Shown here: one piece after another, positions 3,261-35,798 of the stretch | Position numbering within the stretch: position 1 is the first letter of the stretch | Layout of the letters: each line of letters starts with the position of its first letter | Assembly: GCA_003159675.1 (NCBI GenBank) | Contig: PLQC01000168.1 | Coordinates: 43,036-78,833, forward strand | DNA: 35,798 nt | From: Limisphaerales bacterium | GTDB taxonomy: Bacteria; Verrucomicrobiota; Verrucomicrobiia; Limisphaerales; BOG-1460 | Reading direction: 5' to 3' | Made by a program: the position numbers and the translations under genes | The notes under the pieces: model-generated | The model's input: only the letters and a program-made list of their open reading frames with translations | The model's database searches: none | What the model was told of the DNA's origin: nothing

Positions 3261-5003
3261 GTGAGCGATGCGATGACAGAGCTGAAGGCGCGGTACGACC
3301 GCCTGAACCTGTTGTACCATGTGAGCAATGTCATCCATTCCACGCTGGAACCGCAGGAAGCGCTGCAATTGATAACACACGAGGCCGTGCACCTGGTGCG
3401 CGCTTCCAGCGGCTCGGTCGTTCTGATTAACCCCACGACCGGCTTTCTGGAGATTCAGGCGTCGGAAGGCCTGCCGCCTAACGCGGCGGAATTGAAGCTT
3501 CGCGTCGGCGAGGGCGTCACCGGCTGGGTTGCGCGAACCGGCAAACCGGCCCGGATGGGGGACGTGAGGCAGGACTCCCGCTACATCATGCTTCGCCGGA
3601 ATGTTCGATCCGAACTCGCCGTGCCCCTGATGGTCAAGGACGAGGTGCGCGGTGTGTTGAACGTGGACTCGGACCGGCAGGATGCGTTCAGCGCGTACGA
3701 TCAGGAGCTCCTTGAGGCCCTGGCGGTGCAGGCGGCGCGCGTCATTCAAAACACGTGGCTCTATGAACAACTGCGCCTGAAAGCGCGGTTGTTCGAGTCG
3801 CTGGCGAACGTGAGTCGAACGATCAATTCGGCACTCGGCCTGAATGACGCCTTGAAAGTGGTAACCCGGGAAGCCTGCGTGCTGATGCGCGCCAAAATGT
3901 GCTCCCTGATGATGCTGGATGAGAGCCGGGAATGGCTGGATTTGCGGGCCAATTACGGCGCCGGAGAGGCGTACGTCAGAAAACCGCGCCTGAGCATCTC
4001 GGAGAGCCTGTTGGGCGTGGTCGTGAGACGCAAGAAGCCGTTGCAGGTGGAAAACGTGCAGGTCTCGAGCCGGTACCAAAGCGTGGAAGTGGCGCGGCTC
4101 GAAGGCCTGGTGTCGCTCGTGAGCGTGCCCTTGCTGTTTGCAGGCCAGGCCATCGGCACGCTGAGCGTTTATACCGGCCAGCCCTATAATTTTTCAAATG
4201 AGGAGATCCGCATCCTCTCCGCCCTGGCGGAGCTGTCCGCCATCGCCATCGAGAAGGCCCGGCTCTACGAACAGATCGTGGATGTGGAAGAGCAACTGCG
4301 CCAGAACGAAAAGCTCTCCGCCCTCGGTCTCCTCGCCGCGGAAGTGGCCCACGAAATCAGGAATCCGCTCACCGTAATGAAGATGCTTTACCACTCGCTC
4401 AACCTGGAATTCCCCGCCGGCGATCCCCGCACGAAGGACGCGCGAATCATCAGTGAAAAAATCGAGCACTTGAACAAGATCGTTGAGCAGATCCTCGCCT
4501 TCGCGCGCACCAGCGAACCGAACTTCGCGCCCGTCAATCTGAATCAATTGATCAATGAACTGGGCCTCCTGGTCCGGCATAAACTGAAAAACCAGGGCGT
4601 CGAGTGGACCCTCCGCCTGCACTCGAACCTGCCTCCGATCCTGGGCGATGCGACGCAATTGGAGCAGGCGTTCCTGAACCTTATCCTGAATGCCGCGGAA
4701 GCCATGCCCCGGGGCGGCACGCTGACGATCACGTCCCGGCCCATGCACTTGCGCCGCGGTTCCGGAGTTCCCACCCACGTGCTGGTCGAATTCAAAGACA
4801 CCGGTGAAGGCATGAGCCAGGAGCAGCAGCGCCGCGCTTTCACTTCCTTGCTCAACACCTCCAAACGCACCGGCACCGGCCTGGGGCTGGCCATCGTGCG
4901 TCGCATTGTGGAAGCCCACCAGGGCAAACTCTCGCTCCGCTCCCAGCCCGCCCAAGGCACGGTCATACGCCTCGTTTTGCCTTACCAGCCCGACGCTGAC
5001 TAG
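3261..5003 (+). CDS. Soluble sensor histidine kinase with two GAF domains
   Basis: 580 residues from GTG 3261; ATG 3273 is an alternative start. GAF domains lie at about residues 10-165 and 185-335. A dimerisation/phosphoacceptor domain follows with the H-box EVAHEIRNPL (His364), then an HATPase domain with N-box NLILNAAEAM, G1 DTGEGM and G2 GTGLGLAIV. No membrane segment is seen, so sensing is probably cytoplasmic, through a small ligand or redox cue bound by the GAF domains. It should autophosphorylate and pass phosphate to a response regulator, but none is encoded nearby, making it an orphan kinase. The gap to the permease gene is 85 bp. Confidence 0.93.
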   Translation: MSDAMTELKARYDRLNLLYHVSNVIHSTLEPQEALQLITHEAVHLVRASSGSVVLINPTTGFLEIQASEGLPPNAAELKLRVGEGVTGWVARTGKPARMGDVRQDSRYIMLRRNVRSELAVPLMVKDEVRGVLNVDSDRQDAFSAYDQELLEALAVQAARVIQNTWLYEQLRLKARLFESLANVSRTINSALGLNDALKVVTREACVLMRAKMCSLMMLDESREWLDLRANYGAGEAYVRKPRLSISESLLGVVVRRKKPLQVENVQVSSRYQSVEVARLEGLVSLVSVPLLFAGQAIGTLSVYTGQPYNFSNEEIRILSALAELSAIAIEKARLYEQIVDVEEQLRQNEKLSALGLLAAEVAHEIRNPLTVMKMLYHSLNLEFPAGDPRTKDARIISEKIEHLNKIVEQILAFARTSEPNFAPVNLNQLINELGLLVRHKLKNQGVEWTLRLHSNLPPILGDATQLEQAFLNLILNAAEAMPRGGTLTITSRPMHLRRGSGVPTHVLVEFKDTGEGMSQEQQRRAFTSLLNTSKRTGTGLGLAIVRRIVEAHQGKLSLRSQPAQGTVIRLVLPYQPDAD

Positions 5004-11847: not shown

Positions 11848-14829
11848 ATGATCGCTGGAACTGATCTCGTTCGCCGCCTTGGCCTGACTTGCTGCAGGCA
11901 GCTTTATCATGCCCTTGGCAGGCAGGATCGGCGGGTCGCACTTTGGAAAAAGGGCTCCGCGCTCGCCGCCATTTGTGCTCTTGCCTTCCTTTGCGATGCT
12001 CATGCCATCGGCCAGACTCAATACGTGCAGAACGTTTCCAGTCCCGGCAGCTTCCCCATCGTTCGACAAAATGTTCCGGCGGTCCTCCTGGTGGACACAA
12101 ACGACTGGGCGGGCGTCGCGCGCGCCGTCGGTGATTTGCGGGCGGACATTGTGCGGGTCACCGGCTGCACGGCTATGATTGCGCACGAGGAAGGAGATTT
12201 GGGAACCCATGTCATTCTCATCGGCACCCTCGGCAGAAGTCCGCTGATCGATCGATTGGTTCGTCACAGGAGACTCGATGTATCGCAAATCGCCGGCAAG
12301 TGGGAATCGTTCCTGATCCAGCTCGTGCCGGATCCGCTGCCCGGTGTTGCCAGTGGCCTGGTCATCGCCGGCAGCGACAAGCGCGGAACCCTCTATGGCA
12401 TCTACGATCTGTCCGAGGAGATCGGCGTGTCGCCCTGGTATTGGTGGGCGGACGTGCCGGTTCGACATCAGGATGAACTCTTTGTGAAACCGGGGCGATA
12501 TGTGCAAGGGCCGCCGGCGGTCCAATATCGCGGCATTTTTTTGAACGACGAAGCGCCGTCGCTCACGGGTTGGGTGAAGGAAAAATACGGCGATTACAAC
12601 CACGGCTTCTACACGAACGTCTTCGAGCTCCTGCTCCGCCTGAAAGCCAATTACCTCTGGCCCGCCATGTGGAACAATTGCTTCAACGAGGACGATCCCC
12701 TGAATCCAAAGCTCGCCGACGAATACGGCATCGTCATGGGAACGTCCCACGTCGAACCCATGATGCGGGCGGACAAGGAATGGAACCGGAAGGGTTACAC
12801 CGCTGCCGAATGGAACTACGACATTCACCCAAACGAGCTCCGCGCGTTTTGGAAGGAGGGCATCGAGCGAAACAAGGCTTGCGAAAATATCATCACCCTC
12901 GGCATGCGCGGGAAGATCGATACCCCGATGTCGGAGTCCGCGAACATCGCGTTGCTGGAAAAAATCGTGGCGGCCCAACGACAGATCATCTCGGATGTCA
13001 TGCACACCAACCCCGCGGCGGTGCCCCAGCTCTGGGCGTTGTACAAGGAGGTGCAGGAGTATTACGAAAAAGGGATGCGGGTGCCGGAGGATGTGATCCT
13101 GCTCTGGTGCGATGACAATTGGGGAAATCTCCGCCGGTTGCCGACCCCCGAAGAGCGGCGGCGAAGCGGCGGCGCCGGAATCTATTACCATTTCGATTAT
13201 GTCGGCGGGCCGCGGAATTATAAATGGGTCAACACGGTTCCCATCACGAAGGTTTGGGAGCAGATGAACCTGGCATATCACTACGGCGCCAACCGGATTT
13301 GGATCGTGAACGTCGGGGGGCTGAAGCTGAAGGAATTTCCCACGGAATTCTTCCTGAAGTTCGCCTGGGACCCGGAAAAATGGCCGAAGGAAAGAATCCA
13401 GGCGTACACCCGCCTCTGGGCCGCGCGTGAATTCGGCCCGGCCGATGCCCCGCAAATCGCCGATATCATTTCCAAGTACACGAAATACAACGGCCGGCGG
13501 AAGCCGGAGCTGCTCGAGCCGGCCACATTCAGCCTGGTGGATTATCAGGAGGCGGACAGGGTATTGGCCGATTGGAAATCCATCACAGCCGAAGCGGAAC
13601 AACTCTATCAGCGCCTGCCCGCGAATGCCCGGAACGCCTTCTTCGAACTGGTGCTTTATCCGACCAAGGCCTGCGAGCAGGTGAACGAACTCTACATCAT
13701 AGCCGCGAAAAACAGGTTGGAGTCGGGCCAGGGCCGGGCCGGCGCGAATGACCTTGCCACGCGAGCCCGGGAGCTGTTCCAAGCCGATGCGGACTTGTCC
13801 GCGTACTACAATCACACTCTGGCGGATGGCAAGTGGGACCATATCATGGATCAGACGCACATCGGCTACAATTCCTGGCAGCAACCGCCGAGCAACAACA
13901 TGCCTCGACTTTCCGAACTCGATGTTCCTGCGAAGGCGAAACCAGGCGTTGCCGTGGAGGGTTCGACGTCGGCGTGGCCGGGCGCCACCAACGAGGCGGT
14001 CTTGCCGGAGTTCGATGTGTTCAACCAGCCCCGGCATTACATCGACGTGTTCAACGAAGGCCGCGCGCCATTCAAGTTCTCGGCCGTGAGCAGCGCTTCC
14101 TGGATTGTGGTAACCCCGGCAGACGGAATGGTGGACAAGGAACAACGTCTATGGGTGACGGTGGACTGGAGCAAGGCGCCCGGCGGTTCGGAACGCGGCC
14201 GGGTGAAAATCACCGGTGCCGGGACGGAGCCGGTCACAGTGAACGTCGAGATGTTCAATCCACGGACACCGAAACGGGAGGCGTTGAAGGCTTTCGTGGA
14301 AACCGACGGTTATGTTTCCATCGAGGCGGAGCATTACACCCGGAAGATCGATGCCGGCGAGGCCCGGTGGGAAAGGATTGAGGATCTGGGGCGGACCGGG
14401 TCGTCCATGTCGATCTTCCCGGTGACGGCGCCGAGTGCGCTGCCGCCGCAAAATTCACCCCGCCTGGAATATCGGATGTATCTTTTCAATCCGGGAATGG
14501 TGGAGGTTGAAGCCCTCCTTTCGCCGACGCTGAATTTCATTCCTGGCCGGGGCTTGCGATTCGCGATGTCGTTCGACGACCAACCGCCGCGGATGATGAT
14601 CGCCGTGCCGGAGGGCTTCGTCGTTGATAACGGAAATCGGGACTGGGAACGGTCCGTGAAGGACAGCGTCCGCGCCGTCCGATCCACTTTCAGCCTGGCG
14701 CACACGGGTTACCACACGTTGAAAGTGTGGATGGTGGATCCGGGAGTCGTCTTGCAGAAGCTGGTTGTGAACCTCGGAGGCGTGAAGCCAAGCTACTTGG
14801 GTCCGCCCGAGAGCTACCGCGGTGAGTGA
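11848..14829 (+). CDS. Secreted glycoside hydrolase family 115 (xylan alpha-1,2-glucuronidase)
   Basis: 993 residues, normal for GH115. A hydrophobic stretch at 37-49 (ending CDAHA) is a signal peptide behind an unusually long N-terminal lead of about 33 residues, so the true start may lie further in. An N-terminal domain is followed by the catalytic region with YRGIFLNDEAPSLTGW, LKANYLWPAMWNNCFNEDD and MGTSHVEPMMRADKEW, all characteristic of the family, and by the C-terminal GH115 beta domain (about 800-985). The enzyme removes (4-O-methyl)-glucuronic acid from internal and terminal xylose of glucuronoxylan. With the adjacent GH8 and GH3 it makes a small glucuronoxylan degradation locus. No TonB-dependent or sugar transporter is present in the window. 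Confidence 0.93.
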   Translation: MIAGTDLVRRLGLTCCRQLYHALGRQDRRVALWKKGSALAAICALAFLCDAHAIGQTQYVQNVSSPGSFPIVRQNVPAVLLVDTNDWAGVARAVGDLRADIVRVTGCTAMIAHEEGDLGTHVILIGTLGRSPLIDRLVRHRRLDVSQIAGKWESFLIQLVPDPLPGVASGLVIAGSDKRGTLYGIYDLSEEIGVSPWYWWADVPVRHQDELFVKPGRYVQGPPAVQYRGIFLNDEAPSLTGWVKEKYGDYNHGFYTNVFELLLRLKANYLWPAMWNNCFNEDDPLNPKLADEYGIVMGTSHVEPMMRADKEWNRKGYTAAEWNYDIHPNELRAFWKEGIERNKACENIITLGMRGKIDTPMSESANIALLEKIVAAQRQIISDVMHTNPAAVPQLWALYKEVQEYYEKGMRVPEDVILLWCDDNWGNLRRLPTPEERRRSGGAGIYYHFDYVGGPRNYKWVNTVPITKVWEQMNLAYHYGANRIWIVNVGGLKLKEFPTEFFLKFAWDPEKWPKERIQAYTRLWAAREFGPADAPQIADIISKYTKYNGRRKPELLEPATFSLVDYQEADRVLADWKSITAEAEQLYQRLPANARNAFFELVLYPTKACEQVNELYIIAAKNRLESGQGRAGANDLATRARELFQADADLSAYYNHTLADGKWDHIMDQTHIGYNSWQQPPSNNMPRLSELDVPAKAKPGVAVEGSTSAWPGATNEAVLPEFDVFNQPRHYIDVFNEGRAPFKFSAVSSASWIVVTPADGMVDKEQRLWVTVDWSKAPGGSERGRVKITGAGTEPVTVNVEMFNPRTPKREALKAFVETDGYVSIEAEHYTRKIDAGEARWERIEDLGRTGSSMSIFPVTAPSALPPQNSPRLEYRMYLFNPGMVEVEALLSPTLNFIPGRGLRFAMSFDDQPPRMMIAVPEGFVVDNGNRDWERSVKDSVRAVRSTFSLAHTGYHTLKVWMVDPGVVLQKLVVNLGGVKPSYLGPPESYRGE

Positions 14830-15231
14830 CTTTCGAGCTTCGACAATAGTCCGCAAGAATTTCCCTTGTATTCCTATCCTATTGCTCGAACCATCGGTTT
14901 CAACCATGAAAGCTTTTGCAACCTCCCATTCCATTCCGAGCCGGGCGGCGCATCTTCTGGCGGCCTTGTTCCTGTGCGTCCTTGTATCACCGGCGCCGGC
15001 GGCCATGCCCGGCGCCGGGACAAACGAGGATTTTTCGGCGGTACCCGGACAGTAGTGATCTCGTCCTCGCCGGTCATGTCAAAAACTCAGTTCTCCTTTG
15101 AAGCCGCGGTCGCCTGCCGCGTTGAAGCCGGGCGAAAACCGGAGGATGGCGGGGCAAGGTACCCAATTCGGCGACGGCTCCAAATCCCAAACCCGGGACG
15201 CCAAACCAAGCAGGAGAACAATGTCAAAATT
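14830..15231. other. Intergenic stretch with a gene remnant and a possible repeat end
   Basis: 402 bp between convergent GH115 and GH3 genes. It contains the signal-peptide stub listed separately (14906-15055) and no other believable gene. Near the right end, a ribosome-site-like AGGAG precedes ATG and a frame that closes after four codons at TCTAGGACCGACCCC. I recall similar sequence at the ends of repeat elements, but this is memory only. The stop codon of the GH3 gene falls inside it. Confidence 0.4.
14906..15055 (+). pseudogene. Signal-peptide stub of a lost secreted protein
   Basis: The 49-codon frame from ATG 14906 reads as a complete signal peptide (MKAFATSHSIPSRAAH, then a hydrophobic LLAALFLCVLV core and APAA cleavage site) followed by only about 17 residues of mature sequence before a stop. 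Such a short tail cannot be a functional enzyme. The position inside the xylan locus suggests another secreted hydrolase or esterase whose body was deleted, but the family cannot be named. A short secreted peptide is a less likely alternative. Confidence 0.5.
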
Positions 15232-20379: not shown

Positions 20380-20646
20380 TCCATCTCCGGGTCTTGTGTT
20401 TGCTCCTGGGTAATCTGTTTGACGCTGTAATACATCCGTCATACATTGGCTGCGGTTCGAGGGACAAAAGTCGGCCCTGTGCCGTGTGAGAGTCGCGTTT
20501 AGGCGCTTCGCTCCTATATCCCTCAACCACCGCGTAAGCGGTTTGAATTTGCAGGCAAGCGCAGGGTTTGTAGAGGTCGCCGGCAACGGTGGCAGCCCGA
20601 AGGGGTGGGATCCTAGAACCTGGGGTCTGCAAAAAGACATGGAGCC
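20330..20646. other. Intergenic stretch upstream of hsdS and vapB
   Basis: 317 bp between divergent hsdS and antitoxin genes. It holds the right arm of the ACAGGAT array and a small hairpin at 20529-20542 (ACCGC, GTAA loop, GCGGT). I see no gene. Promoters for hsdS (minus) and the antitoxin gene (plus) should be here, but I cannot pick out convincing boxes. Confidence 0.5.
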
Positions 20647-30201: not shown

Positions 30202-30225
30202 GGTGCCTTTGACGGGACTCGAACC
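30202..30225 (-). other. tRNA 3'-end-like fragment (possible attachment-site remnant)
   Basis: On the minus strand it reads GGTTCGAGTCCC followed by GTCAAAGGCACC, like a T-loop, T-stem 3' half and acceptor strand. Only two pairs of the T-stem can form with the bases before it, and no D- or anticodon arm is present, so it is not a tRNA gene. Integrating elements commonly leave such ends. Confidence 0.35.
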
Positions 30226-30253
30226 TTTTTTCAAGGACAATAGCCCCTGGCAG

Positions 30254-30300
30254 ACCCTGTTTCAGGGTATCCCCACACCCTTCCCCACAGGGGGATACCC
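30254..30300. other. Two mutually exclusive hairpins
   Basis: ACCCTG (30254-30259) can pair with CAGGGT (30263-30268). The GGGT part also belongs to GGGTATCCCC (30265-30274), which pairs perfectly over 10 bp with GGGGATACCC (30291-30300). Both stems cannot form together. Confidence 0.5.
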
Positions 30301-30365
30301 GGTCATGTGGAGAATACCCTTTTCTTGCAACTGTTTTGTCGCTGTTTTGATGTCTTGCCGTGTCC

Positions 30366-30383
30366 CCGACTTCGGTCGGTTTT
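30366..30383 (+). terminator. Terminator-like hairpin
   Basis: CCGAC, a TTCG tetraloop and GTCGG are followed by TTTT. The stem is only 5 bp, but the UUCG-type loop is stabilising. No plus-strand gene ends directly before it, so its role is unclear. Confidence 0.35.
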
Positions 30384-30723
30384 ATGGCTCGCGCGGCAGG
30401 GTTGATTTGACATGGATGCCGCGCTCGCCAAAAACCTCCCTCGTCGCTCACGCTCCAAACGAGTTCCCCCCACGGACGGGTTTAGACGAGTAAAGGACAG
30501 GCATGTCCTTAACGAGTTAGAACGAGTTTGGTGAACACGCCGGCGCAGTCAAACGCGCCAGCGTGAGGAACTATTTGCCTACCGGCGGGAGACGTGCCCT
30601 CACGGGTTGACGAGGGGGCAAACGATGGCTGGCCACGAACAACCGACGCGATCTCGTGTTACGGAAAGTTGAAAATAGCCCGGATGCTGACCGGCATGGT
30701 TCTTGGTGCCAAATTAGGGTATC

Positions 30724-31542
30724 TCACTTAATTCTCCTTCGGTGGAGCTTGAAGTTGTGCTGGTCAGCTTCAATCTGAAAAACTTCAAGGTGATCCAAAG
30801 GGGCTTTGCTCGTCAACGACATGATCTCATCGCGCGTAGGAGCCGTCGCACGCAGACCAATGGTCACGGATTTCAGGAGCTTGGGTTCGATCTTGAACAA
30901 GTATATGACCTGCCCGCCATTCACCTGCTTGCGCGCAAGCGACAAATCAAGAATCAGCCGAAACTCCTGCTCGTACTCCCAATCCAGACTCTTGCGTTTG
31001 GCAAACAGTTCGACAGCACCTCTCGGGTTTGAGCCGGTCGGATCATACTCCGCTCGGACGGCATCGTAATCAACCTTCAGAAACGAGTCGAGGTTGAAGA
31101 CCGGATCGGCCTGATCAAATTCAAGGACCAAGCCTTTGTGGGACGAGGCGTAATGTGCCCACATGAGAAGGTGTGCAGGATCAGCTGAGAAACAGATGAC
31201 GCCAAACTTGTGACTCAGCGTGTCGAGGACTTCCAGTTGTGTGTCGAGCTTGGGGGTTTCGGCAACCATTGTGGTGATCACCTTGCCCAAGTTGGCTCTC
31301 ACATGTGCCTGGAACTCTTGAAAATTTCGACAACCTGGAAATTCACTCCTGTGGGCGTTGAAGAACGTAGGATCGGTGATAACTTTTTTCGCCTCTCTCA
31401 GCTCGTAGCCCTTTGGATCTTTGGACACAACAACGGGACTGAATTCAAATGGATCGTTGAAGTCAATCGGTGGGGTCAGTTTGATTTCGAGATTCTTTAG
31501 AACCAGCAATCCTGACTCGCTGCAGTATTTGAAAAGTCCCAT
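30724..31542 (-). CDS. DUF2971 domain protein
   Basis: 272 residues from ATG 31542 (MGLFKYCSESGL); a TTG at 31563 would add seven. LFKYCS near the start, PIDFNDPFEF (about 26-35), then GVICFSADPAHLLMWAHYASSHKGLVLEFD in the middle and DWEYEQEFRLIL later are the marks of DUF2971. The biochemical role of the family is not established; members are often found in variable islands and have been noticed next to defence genes. No membrane segment or signal. It is isolated, with non-coding DNA on both sides. Confidence 0.88.
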   Translation of the reverse strand: MGLFKYCSESGLLVLKNLEIKLTPPIDFNDPFEFSPVVVSKDPKGYELREAKKVITDPTFFNAHRSEFPGCRNFQEFQAHVRANLGKVITTMVAETPKLDTQLEVLDTLSHKFGVICFSADPAHLLMWAHYASSHKGLVLEFDQADPVFNLDSFLKVDYDAVRAEYDPTGSNPRGAVELFAKRKSLDWEYEQEFRLILDLSLARKQVNGGQVIYLFKIEPKLLKSVTIGLRATAPTRDEIMSLTSKAPLDHLEVFQIEADQHNFKLHRRRIK

Positions 31543-32122
31543 AGAAGTTCTGTTTTCAGTCAACTACGCACGCGCTTGAGCTTCTTTCTTTCGCATCTGC
31601 CCATTCCGCCCCGTTGTGCTAACGGACGCCTCGCGTTCTCGTCATGCGAATTGCCAGAAGATTAGCAGCTAGGCCCGTTACCGGCAAGCCGGACCAGCAA
31701 ACACGAAACTTAATGAAAGGTGAACGGGTTGGCCGCATCGTGCCGGACTGGTATCATGGTTCCATCTCATCCCAGAAATGTTCCGGCACAGAGGAAAACC
31801 CAGCGTTCAACCTGCCATCGCAGCTTGGCGGCCAAAACCGACCGCGCCTTTCGCGCGTGAAGAGACGAGACATGCCAGCGAGAGCGAAGCCCATCGCCGG
31901 TGCAAGACAGAGATATTCAAGGCGCTGCAAAACCAGCCCGGCGTCCACAAGCCCATGTTGGAATGCCCGCTTAGCCAATGGAATCCAGTGTTTTTTGAAA
32001 GAAACGGTTAGCGTCTGAGAGTGAACAAGGCGGTTTACACATTCACATGCGTTTGCCTTTTAGCAAAGGCACAATCCTGGACGATGTCTCACGAAGGCAT
32101 CACCAGTTAAGAGAGGACATAA
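31543..32122. other. Intergenic stretch including the left 65-bp inverted repeat
   Basis: No convincing gene. It holds the left inverted-repeat copy (31971-32035) and a small hairpin near 32054-32069 (GCCTTT...AAAGGC). A minus-strand frame, 31754-31978, is open and in phase with the recombinase C-terminus carried by the repeat; see findings. Confidence 0.5.
31971..32035. repeat. Left copy of a perfect 65-bp inverted repeat
   Basis: Base-for-base reverse complement of 34001-34065, checked over all 65 positions; the first flanking base on each side differs. The right copy lies within the 3' coding part of the serine recombinase, so this copy is an inverted duplicate of that segment. Confidence 0.95.
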
Positions 32123-32135
32123 TTATGATCCTCTC
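32111..32135. other. Hairpin at the 3' end of the IS630-type fragment
   Basis: GAGAGGA (32111-32117) and TCCTCTC (32129-32135) form a perfect 7-bp stem with an 11-nt loop. The stop codon of the minus-strand fragment lies in the loop, so it may act as a terminator or protect the transcript end. Confidence 0.4.
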
Positions 32136-32551
32136 GTTTCTTGACGATTCCGTTCACACGCCCGCAACAAACGGCGGCAATGCCGCATCGTTAAATGAAT
32201 GCCATGACGTTTCCGCAGGAATTCCGCGACACGCGCGCCTGTCCACCGATTGCCGATCAGTCCGACATCCGTTGGAGATTTCTTGAGAGTTGCAAGCAGA
32301 GCTTTCTGTTGCCGTGGATTCAGCACGGCAGGCCGACCGGGTTTCTCCGCCTCTTTCAATCCATCGAGACCGCGCTTTCTGAACGCGATTGCCCAATGGG
32401 CAATCGTGCGTTGCGGAACGCCGAGAAACTTGCCGGCCTTAACCGTGCTTGAACCGAGGAGCACGAGAAGCACCCCATGCAGGCGGTGGACATATCGCGC
32501 CTCTTCCGAGCGGCGGATTTCTTTGCGGATGATTGCAATGGCATCATTCAC
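32123..32551 (-). CDS. IS630-type winged helix-turn-helix protein, DDE domain absent
   Basis: 142 residues resembling the N-terminal DNA-binding half of IS630-family transposases: a first helix-turn-helix (STVKAGKFLGVPQRTIAHWAIAFRKRGLDGL), the GRPAVL linker and a second winged helix (GNRWTGARVAEFLRKRHGI). A full transposase is about 340 residues; here the frame stops where the catalytic DDE domain should begin, and the downstream 90 bp encode none of it. It is therefore a truncated transposase, or a stand-alone DNA-binding protein. It is divergent from the recombinase gene, whose start is 66 bp away, and lies within the 65-bp inverted repeat pair. Confidence 0.75.
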   Translation of the reverse strand: MNDAIAIIRKEIRRSEEARYVHRLHGVLLVLLGSSTVKAGKFLGVPQRTIAHWAIAFRKRGLDGLKEAEKPGRPAVLNPRQQKALLATLKKSPTDVGLIGNRWTGARVAEFLRKRHGIHLTMRHCRRLLRACERNRQETRGS

Positions 32552-32581
32552 GGAAATAGTTGGCTCTTGTGCGCTTTTATA

Positions 32582-32608
32582 CTAGCAAAACAATGTGTCC
32601 TTTGCTAG
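32582..32608. promoter_or_regulatory. Palindromic operator-like site upstream of the recombinase
   Basis: CTAGCAAA (32582-32589) and TTTGCTAG (32601-32608) are perfect 8-bp arms around 11 bases, ending 9 bp before the recombinase ATG at 32618. The site sits in the divergent promoter gap and could bind a dimeric regulator of the recombinase. No Shine-Dalgarno sequence is seen, so the recombinase transcript may start near the ATG. Confidence 0.5.
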
Positions 32609-32617
32609 ACTATTCGT

Positions 32618-34183
32618 ATGCTCAGATATTTCATTTACTGCCGCAAGTCCACCGAGGACGAAGATCGTCAAATCCTTTCGATTGACGCGCAGATTTCCGA
32701 AATGAATGCCATCATCACGCGGGAGGGCTTGACCGTCACGGACACCCTCACCGAATGCCGGAGCGCAAAGGAACCAGGCCGCCCGGTGTTCAATGACATG
32801 CTTAGCCGCATTGAGCGCGGCGAAGCCAATGGTATTCTCGCTTGGAAGCTGGATCGTCTGGCCCGCAATTTCGATGACGGCGGCAAGATCATCGGTCTTC
32901 TCCAGCGAGGCGTCATTCGTGAAATCCGCACGTTCGAGAAGACGTATCTTCCCACTGACAACGTGCTCATGATCGCGGTTGAGCTTGGGATGGCCAATCA
33001 ATACGTCCGCGACCTTTCGACCAACATCCGGCGCGGCATCCGGGAGAAAATCCGCCGGGGGATATATTCGAGCAAAGCCCCGCTCGGATATATCAACGAA
33101 CCAAGATTGCGCACGATTGAGCCGCACCCTCTGTATTTTCCGAAGATAAAGCGTGTAATGGAGCTTTTTGCGACCGGCCAATACTCGCTGACGACCATTC
33201 AGAAGGAATTGGCGTCAGTCGGCATTGTGGGAAATCTGAGCAAAAAGCCCCTGCCGCTTTCGTCAATCGGAAATATGTTCCGCAACCCGTTTTACTACGG
33301 GGTCTTCCTCCACAAAGGCGAGATGCACCAGGGAGTGCATCCGCCGATGATTTCGAAAAAGACGTTTGACGAAATCCAGGCCGCGCTCGTCAAGATCGGG
33401 AAACCGCAGAGTCGGAACAAGCGCGGGGAGAAAGGATTCCTTTTTCTCAATTTCGCAACGTGCGGCTCCTGCGGGCACTGCATCACTGCCGAACGCCACA
33501 CCAAGAGGAGCGGTCGCCGGTATCACTACTATCGTTGCACACACAAGAACAAGAAGCAGCATTGCGACGACCGCGATTTCATCCGAGAGGAGCAATTTGC
33601 TGAGGAAGTGAAACGCAACACAAGCCTGGTGGCTCTTCCCGACGAATGGAAAGAGAAATTCCTTGCCCAAATTGAACTGTGGCAAGACGACGAGGGGCAA
33701 GCGCGGCAACGGCACGTTGACCGCATCAAATCCGAGCTTACCGCTCTCAAATCAAAAATTGACAGGCTCAACACCGCCTTTACAGAAGGCGGCCTTGAGC
33801 TTTCCGAGTTCAAGGAACTGAAGAACCCCCTGATCGTCCAAAAGGCCGTTTTGGAGCAGCAATTAGCCAAAGTTGAGAAAGGGGAAGCCAGTCGGCTCGA
33901 ACCCTTGAAAAACTGGGTTTTAGAGGCAAATCAGGCCCAAAAATGGGTTTTGGAGGACAACTGGTTAGAAATGAAGTCATTCCTCCAAAAAGTCGGCTCG
34001 AACCGCCTTGTTCACTCTCAGACGCTAACCGTTTCTTTCAAAAAACACTGGATTCCATTGGCTAAAATCACAGTCGCGGCGCAACGCGCAGCGTCCGAAA
34101 CTGAACGAAGTTCAATATGGTGGAGGCGGCGGGAGTTGAACCCGCGTCCCGGACAAATCTACCAGCCGCGACTACATGCTTAG
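32618..34183 (+). CDS. Large serine recombinase (resolvase/invertase family integrase)
   Basis: 521 residues as read. The resolvase domain starts at residue 3 with catalytic Ser11 in YCRKSTEDEDRQ and the arginine-rich AWKLDRLARN (about 75-84). A recombinase domain follows (about 150-265, APLGYIN... FRNPFYYGVF), then a zinc ribbon (CGSCGHC...YRCTHKNKKQHC, about 287-320) and a coiled-coil segment (about 370-440). It would cut and exchange DNA at short att sites through a phosphoserine link. The end is odd: codons 462-483 lie in the right 65-bp inverted repeat, and the last 20-odd residues (WWRRRELNPRPGQ...) are merely the tmRNA 3' end read in frame. The native C-terminus may have been different. 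Confidence 0.9.
   Translation: MLRYFIYCRKSTEDEDRQILSIDAQISEMNAIITREGLTVTDTLTECRSAKEPGRPVFNDMLSRIERGEANGILAWKLDRLARNFDDGGKIIGLLQRGVIREIRTFEKTYLPTDNVLMIAVELGMANQYVRDLSTNIRRGIREKIRRGIYSSKAPLGYINEPRLRTIEPHPLYFPKIKRVMELFATGQYSLTTIQKELASVGIVGNLSKKPLPLSSIGNMFRNPFYYGVFLHKGEMHQGVHPPMISKKTFDEIQAALVKIGKPQSRNKRGEKGFLFLNFATCGSCGHCITAERHTKRSGRRYHYYRCTHKNKKQHCDDRDFIREEQFAEEVKRNTSLVALPDEWKEKFLAQIELWQDDEGQARQRHVDRIKSELTALKSKIDRLNTAFTEGGLELSEFKELKNPLIVQKAVLEQQLAKVEKGEASRLEPLKNWVLEANQAQKWVLEDNWLEMKSFLQKVGSNRLVHSQTLTVSFKKHWIPLAKITVAAQRAASETERSSIWWRRRELNPRPGQIYQPRLHA
34001..34065. repeat. Right copy of the 65-bp inverted repeat
   Basis: Lies in the recombinase coding sequence (about codons 462-483) and is the exact reverse complement of 31971-32035. 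The pair encloses 1,965 bp containing the IS630-type fragment and most of the recombinase. Confidence 0.95.
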
Positions 34184-34470
34184 TCCGGAGAGATTTTTCT
34201 GCTGTGCGATAGCGTCCGAACTCGAGTCGCACTGCCTAGTCCGCATGGAATTTTCTCGGCCGCCGGCGCGCAGTCTCCGCCGTCAACCATGCCTGCTATG
34301 GCGTTCAGCCGGCGTAGCAGGTGTCCACCGGTGAACGTCGCGACGCATTAGGCCGCGAGAGCTAATTCTTGGTTAGCACTTATTTTTGGTTCGATATTTA
34401 ACGAGGCCAACGAACCATCCTCGGCATGCCGCCTCTGGCGCATCTCGCAGGTCGAAACCAGTACGCCCCC
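34118..34470 (-). ncRNA. ssrA: Transfer-messenger RNA (tmRNA)
   Basis: 353 nt. The 5' end GGGGGCG pairs with CGCCTCC before the 3' ACCA, seven pairs with one G-U. The T-arm (GGGTTCAACTCCC) and the 5' GGTTTCGAC region are typical. The tag frame starts with GCT at 34377 and reads ANQELALAA then TAA (34350-34348), a normal degradation tag end. tmRNA rescues stalled ribosomes with SmpB and tags the peptide for proteolysis. The 3' end adjoins the serine recombinase gene, and ssrA 3' ends are frequent integration sites, so the gene probably marks the boundary of an integrated element. Confidence 0.95.
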
Positions 34471-34907: not shown

Positions 34908-35798
34908 ATGAATAATGACATCAACGGACCAAGACAAACGAGAAGCCTGGTTGGGCAAATTCCCGAACCCGACGAACTTTATGGGCGGGAAGATTTCATT
35001 GACCATCTCTGGCGACTGATTGACGGAAATAATGTCCTGCTGCTGGCCCCACGGCGATTTGGCAAGAGCGGAGTGATGCGGCATGTGCTGCTGCCCCCAC
35101 GGGCCGGTTTTCTGCCACTTTCGTTTGAGCTTGAGGACGTTGATTCACCAGAGGAATTTGTCTGGCGCATCACGCGCGAACTCTTAAGGCACGACACTTT
35201 CAAGGTCTTGTTAAGGGGCGCAAAGCGCCTTCCAAAGGCTTTTGGGGAGTGGGTGAAGGCTAATTTTGACGAAGCCGAGTTCGAGGGAGCGAAGATCAAA
35301 TTCAAGGAGAACATCAAGGAGGATTGGCGCGAAGCAGCGAAACGGATGCTGGGGGAGCTGGAGAAGGCGGACAAAACAATCATCTTCCTTTTCGACGAAT
35401 TCCCGGCAATGCTCGACCGCCTCATTGAGAAACAAGGCGAAGCCGTCGCACGCGATTTCCTGGCATGGTTCCGTTCCGTGCGACTGGAGCAAAAGGACGT
35501 GCTTCGGCGCCACAGGTTTATCGTCGCGGGAAGCGTCGGCATTGACCAGATTCTGCGCAAACTGGGGGCCGCTGACAAATTGGTGGATTTTGCGCGATTA
35601 ACCGTTGAGCCGCTGGACGAACCGACGGCGCGCCGGCTGGCCAGCGATCTGGCTCGCTCCCATTCAATCAACTGCGACGATGCGATTCTGGGCAGACTGT
35701 TCGAACTGATTGGCGCGCCCGTTCCCTACTTCATTCACATTTTCATCTCGCAGATCGGCCAGTTGCCGCTGGCCCAACGGAAAGACCTCACCGTCGCG
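34908..35798 (+). CDS. AAA ATPase (archaeal-type ATPase/STAND-like), partial
   Basis: 297 codons from ATG 34908, open at the window edge. Near the start, ELYGREDFIDHLWRLI is the usual lead of these ATPases. Walker A is APRRFGKSG (47-55) and Walker B IFLFDEFPAML (158-168). A sensor-1-like stretch RFIVAGSVGID follows, then the LTVEPLDEPTARRLA region and a winged-helix-like part. Proteins of this type are P-loop ATPases of uncertain role, often near mobile elements, toxins or defence genes. It stands on the non-element side of ssrA, so it may be native or belong to another insertion. The C-terminus, which would inform on function, is missing. Confidence 0.82.
   Translation, partial: MNNDINGPRQTRSLVGQIPEPDELYGREDFIDHLWRLIDGNNVLLLAPRRFGKSGVMRHVLLPPRAGFLPLSFELEDVDSPEEFVWRITRELLRHDTFKVLLRGAKRLPKAFGEWVKANFDEAEFEGAKIKFKENIKEDWREAAKRMLGELEKADKTIIFLFDEFPAMLDRLIEKQGEAVARDFLAWFRSVRLEQKDVLRRHRFIVAGSVGIDQILRKLGAADKLVDFARLTVEPLDEPTARRLASDLARSHSINCDDAILGRLFELIGAPVPYFIHIFISQIGQLPLAQRKDLTVA

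Follow-up and report, generated by a model that had tools for sequence, protein, structure and literature searches.

The 65-bp inverted repeat at positions 31971-32035 and 34001-34065 of the window (the whole stretch of 35,798 nucleotides analysed here) was confirmed by sequence comparison as a genuine remnant of a small mobile element. With a probability of roughly 85%, the window carries the decayed copy of a small integrative element, from a family which is moved by a large serine recombinase (LSR), possesses two attP sites in inverted orientation and integrates at the ends of tRNA or tmRNA genes. The evidence for this comprises nested repeats, three-way junctions and empty sites among relatives, a conserved tail that continues the recombinase reading frame, and varied cargo beside similar LSR modules. 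In the following, the copies of the repeat are referred to as arms, and T denotes a separate conserved sequence of about 90–355 bp beyond the left arm, with T(+) beside this arm and T(-) at the distal end. The parts of the element in the window are as follows.

30202-30203, no strand: probable attR crossover (T–CC–host), a tentative assignment with only CC common with the attL core.
30204-30482 (about), minus strand: T end, T(-), the putative distal P half, with a GTTCGA motif and RTFF tail codons.
30724-31563, minus strand: cargo gene for a DUF2971 protein, of the PADLOC candidate defence family PDC-S31 (E 2e-35).
31564-31970, no strand: expected place of T(+) and of the outer 52 bp of the left arm, with no T homology.
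31971-32035, minus strand: truncated left arm (armL), the inner 65 bp of a putative second, inverted P′ half of attP, duplicating the 3′ part of the LSR gene.
32123-32551, minus strand: HTH protein (HTH_32), divergent from the LSR, resembling the N-terminus of IS630 and having no DDE domain.
32618-34183, plus strand: LSR, an ORF of 521 aa with a conserved part of ~483 aa.
34001-34123, plus strand: right arm (armR), consisting of the last conserved LSR codons, a 52-bp in-frame spacer and the core TGGTGG.
34118-34470, minus strand: ssrA (tmRNA), the target gene, the 3′ end of which is the putative integration site.

The two 65-bp copies are exact reverse complements with a spacing of 1,965 bp, their flanks show no similarity immediately beyond the repeat on either side, and the sequence occurs in only these two copies in the whole 4.1-Mb genome. 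A sequence-only reading of the window had described a perfect repeat with abrupt ends, the right copy of which falls within the recombinase coding region, and both points are borne out, the right copy being located in the LSR reading frame; its odd position there is explained if attP lies within the integrase gene. The tmRNA gene, the T-end copy and the cargo gene to the left had been overlooked in that reading. The 3′ end of the tmRNA is located 52 bp past the outer end of the right copy, and the core TGGTGG corresponds to the last 6 nt of the tmRNA, so that armR and the tmRNA form attL; the LSR ORF reads through the arm and the core into antisense tmRNA. The recombinase contains the Resolvase (PF00239), Recombinase (PF07508) and Zn_ribbon_recom (PF13408) domains, all above the Pfam cut-off, and its PDB match is the A118 integrase, a domain plan that points to a large serine recombinase, or serine integrase. 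The divergent gene had been taken for an IS630-type fragment. The IS630 model is matched by the 142-aa protein only at positions 2-116 of 299, however, and the gene recurs in five related elements, likewise standing alone and with its place and orientation unchanged, and is kept in the verrucomicrobial elements; an IS630 transposon remnant was therefore rejected, as the DDE transposase domain is absent, and the conservation in five elements indicates an accessory gene rather than IS debris. Elsewhere in the window, a structured RNA of the DUF3800-VII motif (Rfam RF02967, 69.8 bits) lies at 20550-20636 on the plus strand, and the start of a possible AAA-ATPase-like gene, with a Pfam match below the cut-off, lies past the tmRNA at 34908-35798 on the plus strand, preceded by a 21-bp inverted repeat (34856-34876/34889-34909).

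A scan of the genome collection gave 79 loci, in which 58 LSRs were long enough for the arm-pair test. An arm pair was found for 35 of them (including the window), was absent in 19 and could not be sought in four that were without context. The pairs in the 34 relatives occupy the same place, are usually longer than that of the window (arms of ~65-160 bp) and 94-100% identical, and usually reach the core NNNCCA, the outer end of the arm being the last 5-6 nt of the adjoining tRNA or tmRNA gene. The targets at the arms comprise tRNA genes for Ala, Gln, Gly, Arg, Lys, Ser, Leu, Thr and Glu as well as tmRNA. In one example (L006, on the same contig as L028), arms of ~120 bp separated by 1,966 bp end at the CCA of a tRNA-Ala gene and enclose the same divergent HTH gene as in the window. 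In the LSR tree, all 35 arm-pair loci fall into one clade with a support of 100/100, together with three loci without a pair and three without context, and this clade spans Verrucomicrobiota, many patescibacterial phyla, Omnitrophota and Elusimicrobiota. The second main LSR clade, which is mostly from Omnitrophota and has several members at tRNA-His, showed an arm pair in none of its 14 loci with context. In a 0.8-Mb patescibacterial genome (G110; L113-L117 and L029), seven LSR homologues are present, and several of them possess an arm pair of their own and lie near different tRNAs. C-terminal LSR relics were also seen beside tRNA-Ala or tmRNA (L007, L015, L016/L019), which we read as repeated gain and loss at such sites. 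The plasmid and phage collections gave only distant matches of <30% identity, besides which there were four weak viral contigs, and an origin from a phage or plasmid was rejected.

In the loci with enough flank, T has an inverted partner located 1-5 kb farther out. These T/T′ pairs are 100% identical over 299 bp (L111), 181 bp (L123), 174 bp (L060) and 132 bp (L122), and are 99.6% identical over 277 bp (L110) and 97.7% over 355 bp (L121), with further pairs of 195 bp (96%, L118) and 342 bp (86.6%, L120); no T(-) was found within about 16 kb in L108 and L109. In complete form, the parts are arranged as host–T–cargo–T′–NNNCCA–arm–(HTH)–LSR–arm′–TGGNNN, in which TGGNNN is the end of the tRNA or tmRNA gene, and complete relatives measure 2.7-6.8 kb from this end to the distant T end. 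Many contigs stop 50-260 bp beyond the left arm, as might be expected if short reads fail to resolve the T repeat. In junction alignments of 11 elements, a shared core of 1-7 nt, positioned where the tRNA has its 3′ end, recurs in tRNA–core–arm, in T–core–arm and in T–core–host; we interpret these junctions as attL, an intact inverted attP and attR, respectively. Joining attL to attR gives a predicted circle with two near-identical inverted attP sites, each made up of T and an arm and measuring roughly 170-475 bp.

Empty sites were found for two of the relatives. In L121, 5,648 bp lie between tRNA-Gly and a gene resembling a solute-binding protein, whereas in G191 (L136) the tRNA-Gly is directly joined to the neighbouring gene (404-bp alignment, 78.5%) and in G192 (L144) the tRNA and the gene are likewise directly adjacent; for L111, L130 links tRNA-Ala straight to the same downstream sequence. 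With an apparent attL, an attR of shared core (11 elements) and an empty site, the relatives present the features of integrative elements that target tRNA or tmRNA genes. The sequence-only reading had considered a compact mobile unit with the repeats as its ends and had proposed a search of relatives for a 2.1-kb unit and for its empty sites. Mobility is upheld and empty sites do exist, but the block missing there is larger than 2.1 kb and the repeats are not its termini. A 2.1-kb terminal-repeat transposon was rejected because T ends lie outside the arms and because the empty site lacks the whole block.

On the basis of these junctions, the free form is proposed to be a circle with two identical attP sites in opposite orientation, each composed of a P half (T), the core and a P′ half (the arm), which would separate the LSR module from the cargo module. 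The attB would be the 3′ end of a tRNA or tmRNA gene, with its last nucleotides, NNNCCA, as the core. Recombination of attB with the attP overlapping the LSR 3′ end, presumably catalysed by the LSR itself, would insert the circle between attL (tRNA–core–arm) and attR (T–core–host), leaving the second attP intact inside the integrated element and generating the nested inverted pairs arm/arm′ and T/T′; the 65-bp repeat of the window would be the residue of such an arm pair.

The reading frame of the LSR is consistent with an attP located within the recombinase gene. In 28 of 29 elements, the frame stays open across the arm as far as the core. In 27 of the 29, reading on along the predicted circle leads into T and to a conserved tail at the end of the frame, with a consensus of roughly LxEK(I/V)RT(H/F/Y)FxENP. 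The exceptions are L048, in which the frame is broken ahead of the core (L048 and L120 being one element), and L022, in which T is absent. Four codons, CGA, AGA, CGT and CGG, are used for the invariant arginine across 26 tails, and conservation is highest at codon position 2 (0.595), intermediate at position 1 (0.504) and lowest at position 3 (0.400; permutation p 0.015), a pattern from which it follows that the tail is conserved partly at the protein level. The remaining conservation may be that of the attachment half-site itself, since a GTTCGA resembling that of the tRNA T-loop occurs within the tail stretch. When the element is integrated, antisense-tRNA codons occupy the position of the tail. 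With attP inside the LSR gene, integration would strip the recombinase of its conserved C-terminal tail and put these codons in its place, with a possible effect of the swap on the protein, while the second attP would retain an intact copy of the LSR end.

The order in the window, namely T(-), cargo, truncated left arm, HTH gene, LSR, right arm and tmRNA, is the expected one, and so are the orientations, and we regard the copy as decayed. T(+) and the outer 52 bp of armL appear to have been lost or replaced, and T(-) is degenerate, being 2 nt shorter than in the relatives beside the core, with its tail codons out of frame with the LSR. This decay explains why the 65-bp repeat stops abruptly and, together with the core reduced to CC, why the pairing of T(-) with the tmRNA is weaker than in the relatives. 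A search for a direct repeat of the tmRNA 3′ end within the window gave only short chance matches, which is expected because the core, on this model, is only a few nucleotides. A T-like end of 71% identity is also present elsewhere in the same genome (G000:C116:846-1070, L106), with no LSR noticed within this 2.6-kb locus.

Some relatives depart from the general layout. L022 has full arms and no T beside the left arm, which at position 3364 abuts the end of a protein reading frame, with a tex-like gene upstream; this arrangement is possibly the product of a spare attP recombined with a pseudo-attB. Hairpins with the core at both ends lie beside T modules in L122 (~14800-14890) and L120 (~12510-12550), both numbered in the LSR orientation. 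In G336 and G284, arms matching these hairpins are inverted and about 1.7 kb apart. The hairpins look like LSR modules with the interior lost, which would leave stacked cargo modules, and such remnants show rearrangements outside the scope of the doubled-attP model. Both departures could also be accommodated by two independent transposon-like units, one an LSR unit bounded by arm/arm′ and the other a cargo unit bounded by T/T′, each inserting beside NNNCCA: each module owns its inverted repeats, L022 would be an LSR module without T, and the arm-like hairpins of L122 and L120 lie without an LSR between T modules. This we consider improbable, because the LSR frame crosses from the arm to T, where it encodes a conserved protein tail, which marks the two as halves of a single ancestral sequence, and because the whole 5.6 kb is missing as a single block at the empty site.

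Perfect inverted arms on both sides of a serine recombinase would also suit a switch that turns genes on and off by inversion of the 1,965-bp interior, either by the recombinase, as the sequence-only reading had suggested, or by homologous recombination between the arms, and a flip of the LSR module would indeed link the LSR to an intact copy of its tail. Such inversion was not seen: the LSR 3′ end is directed towards the neighbouring tRNA or tmRNA in 24 of 24 elements with one called, and the reverse never occurs among the assembled relatives. This uniformity argues against frequent flipping after integration, or else for selection for the convergent orientation. The arms are, moreover, attachment half-sites common to the tRNA junction, and recombination between two attP sites is not normally carried out by serine integrases, so that an invertible switch is very unlikely. 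An exact 65-bp repeat in a draft assembly might finally raise the concern of an assembly artefact, voiced in the sequence-only reading, or of a chance duplication of the recombinase 3′ end, which can be dismissed since the same pair is found at homologous positions in 34 other LSR loci from many genomes and assemblies and since the length of the repeat excludes chance. To return to the doubled attP, the arms of the window are 100% identical to each other and only ~86% identical to those of the nearest arm-bearing relative (L022/L107), from which it follows that the arm pair evolves in concert, most simply through recombination, or conversion, in which the two inverted copies would engage while on the circle.

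The cargo of the relatives is varied. It includes restriction-modification genes, namely a C5 methyltransferase in L111 and an N4/N6 methyltransferase with an MvaI/BcnI-type endonuclease in L120, GrpB and DUF218 proteins in L118, a radical SAM protein in L042 and other genes elsewhere; the PADLOC comparison covered cargo other than that of L121, L122 and L123. The LSR modules of L118 and L111 are ~90% identical over 1.76 kb, whereas their cargo is unrelated and their T sequences have only ~45 bp beside the core in common.

Taken singly, this type of recombinase, this target and an attP located in int are all known. In Dehalococcoides, islands at the 3′ end of ssrA contain the serine recombinase DsiB and variable cargo, and the 3′ end of DsiB overlaps attL and runs antisense into ssrA (PMC3146451). 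They resemble the present family in their tmRNA 3′-end target, the overlap of the recombinase with attL and the variable cargo, but differ in that their repeats are direct and 20 bp long, that DsiA is present as a second recombinase and that there is a six-gene module, with no inverted repeats mentioned in the text (PMC3146451); neither a DsiA/DsiB pair nor the six-gene module is present between the arms of the window, which enclose one LSR and the HTH gene only. According to the accessible part of the Mx8 report, the attP of this myxophage is located in the coding sequence of int, which acquires a new 3′ end upon integration (PMC6070905), as in the elements described here; Mx8 is, however, a temperate phage, and that part describes no inverted second attP copy. 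Likewise, the accessible part of the work on integration-dependent immunity in mycobacteriophage BPs places attP in a gene whose product has its C-terminus altered by integration (PMC4557955); the gene altered in BPs is the repressor and not the integrase, and a doubled attP is not described there. The searchable literature, comprising few subscription papers and no preprints, contained no report of a doubled inverted attP with nested repeats across phyla, which is not proof of novelty.

The yeast 2-micron plasmid is a circle in which two inverted repeats with recombination sites separate two segments. The proposed circle resembles it in plan but differs in recombinase chemistry and host, and in the present family no replication gene was noticed among the cargo ORFs and no flipping was seen. 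Recombinase-mediated cassette exchange, as used in engineering, places two inverted attP sites around exchangeable cargo. It is man-made, whereas in the present family exchange is suggested by different cargo beside similar LSR modules.

In conclusion, this family of small elements carrying defence genes and other cargo in Patescibacteria, Verrucomicrobiota, Omnitrophota and Elusimicrobiota seems to be undescribed, and its plan, with a doubled inverted attP and an integrase C-terminus that would be exchanged at integration, is unusual and directly testable in both respects. The family offers serine integrases with defined tRNA-end targets, and the T repeats may account for the frequent contig breaks beside these LSR genes. 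As a tentative idea, to which we give somewhat less than even odds, the elements could be natural cassette exchangers, in which the inverted attP pair on the circle lets cargo swap and stack at tRNA ends and splitting of the integrase tail at integration provides a one-way lock, to be undone by flipping or re-circularization; if this is true, the exchanged cargo would include restriction-modification and candidate defence genes. The elements thus provide a concrete system for studying the control of integration directionality and cargo exchange.
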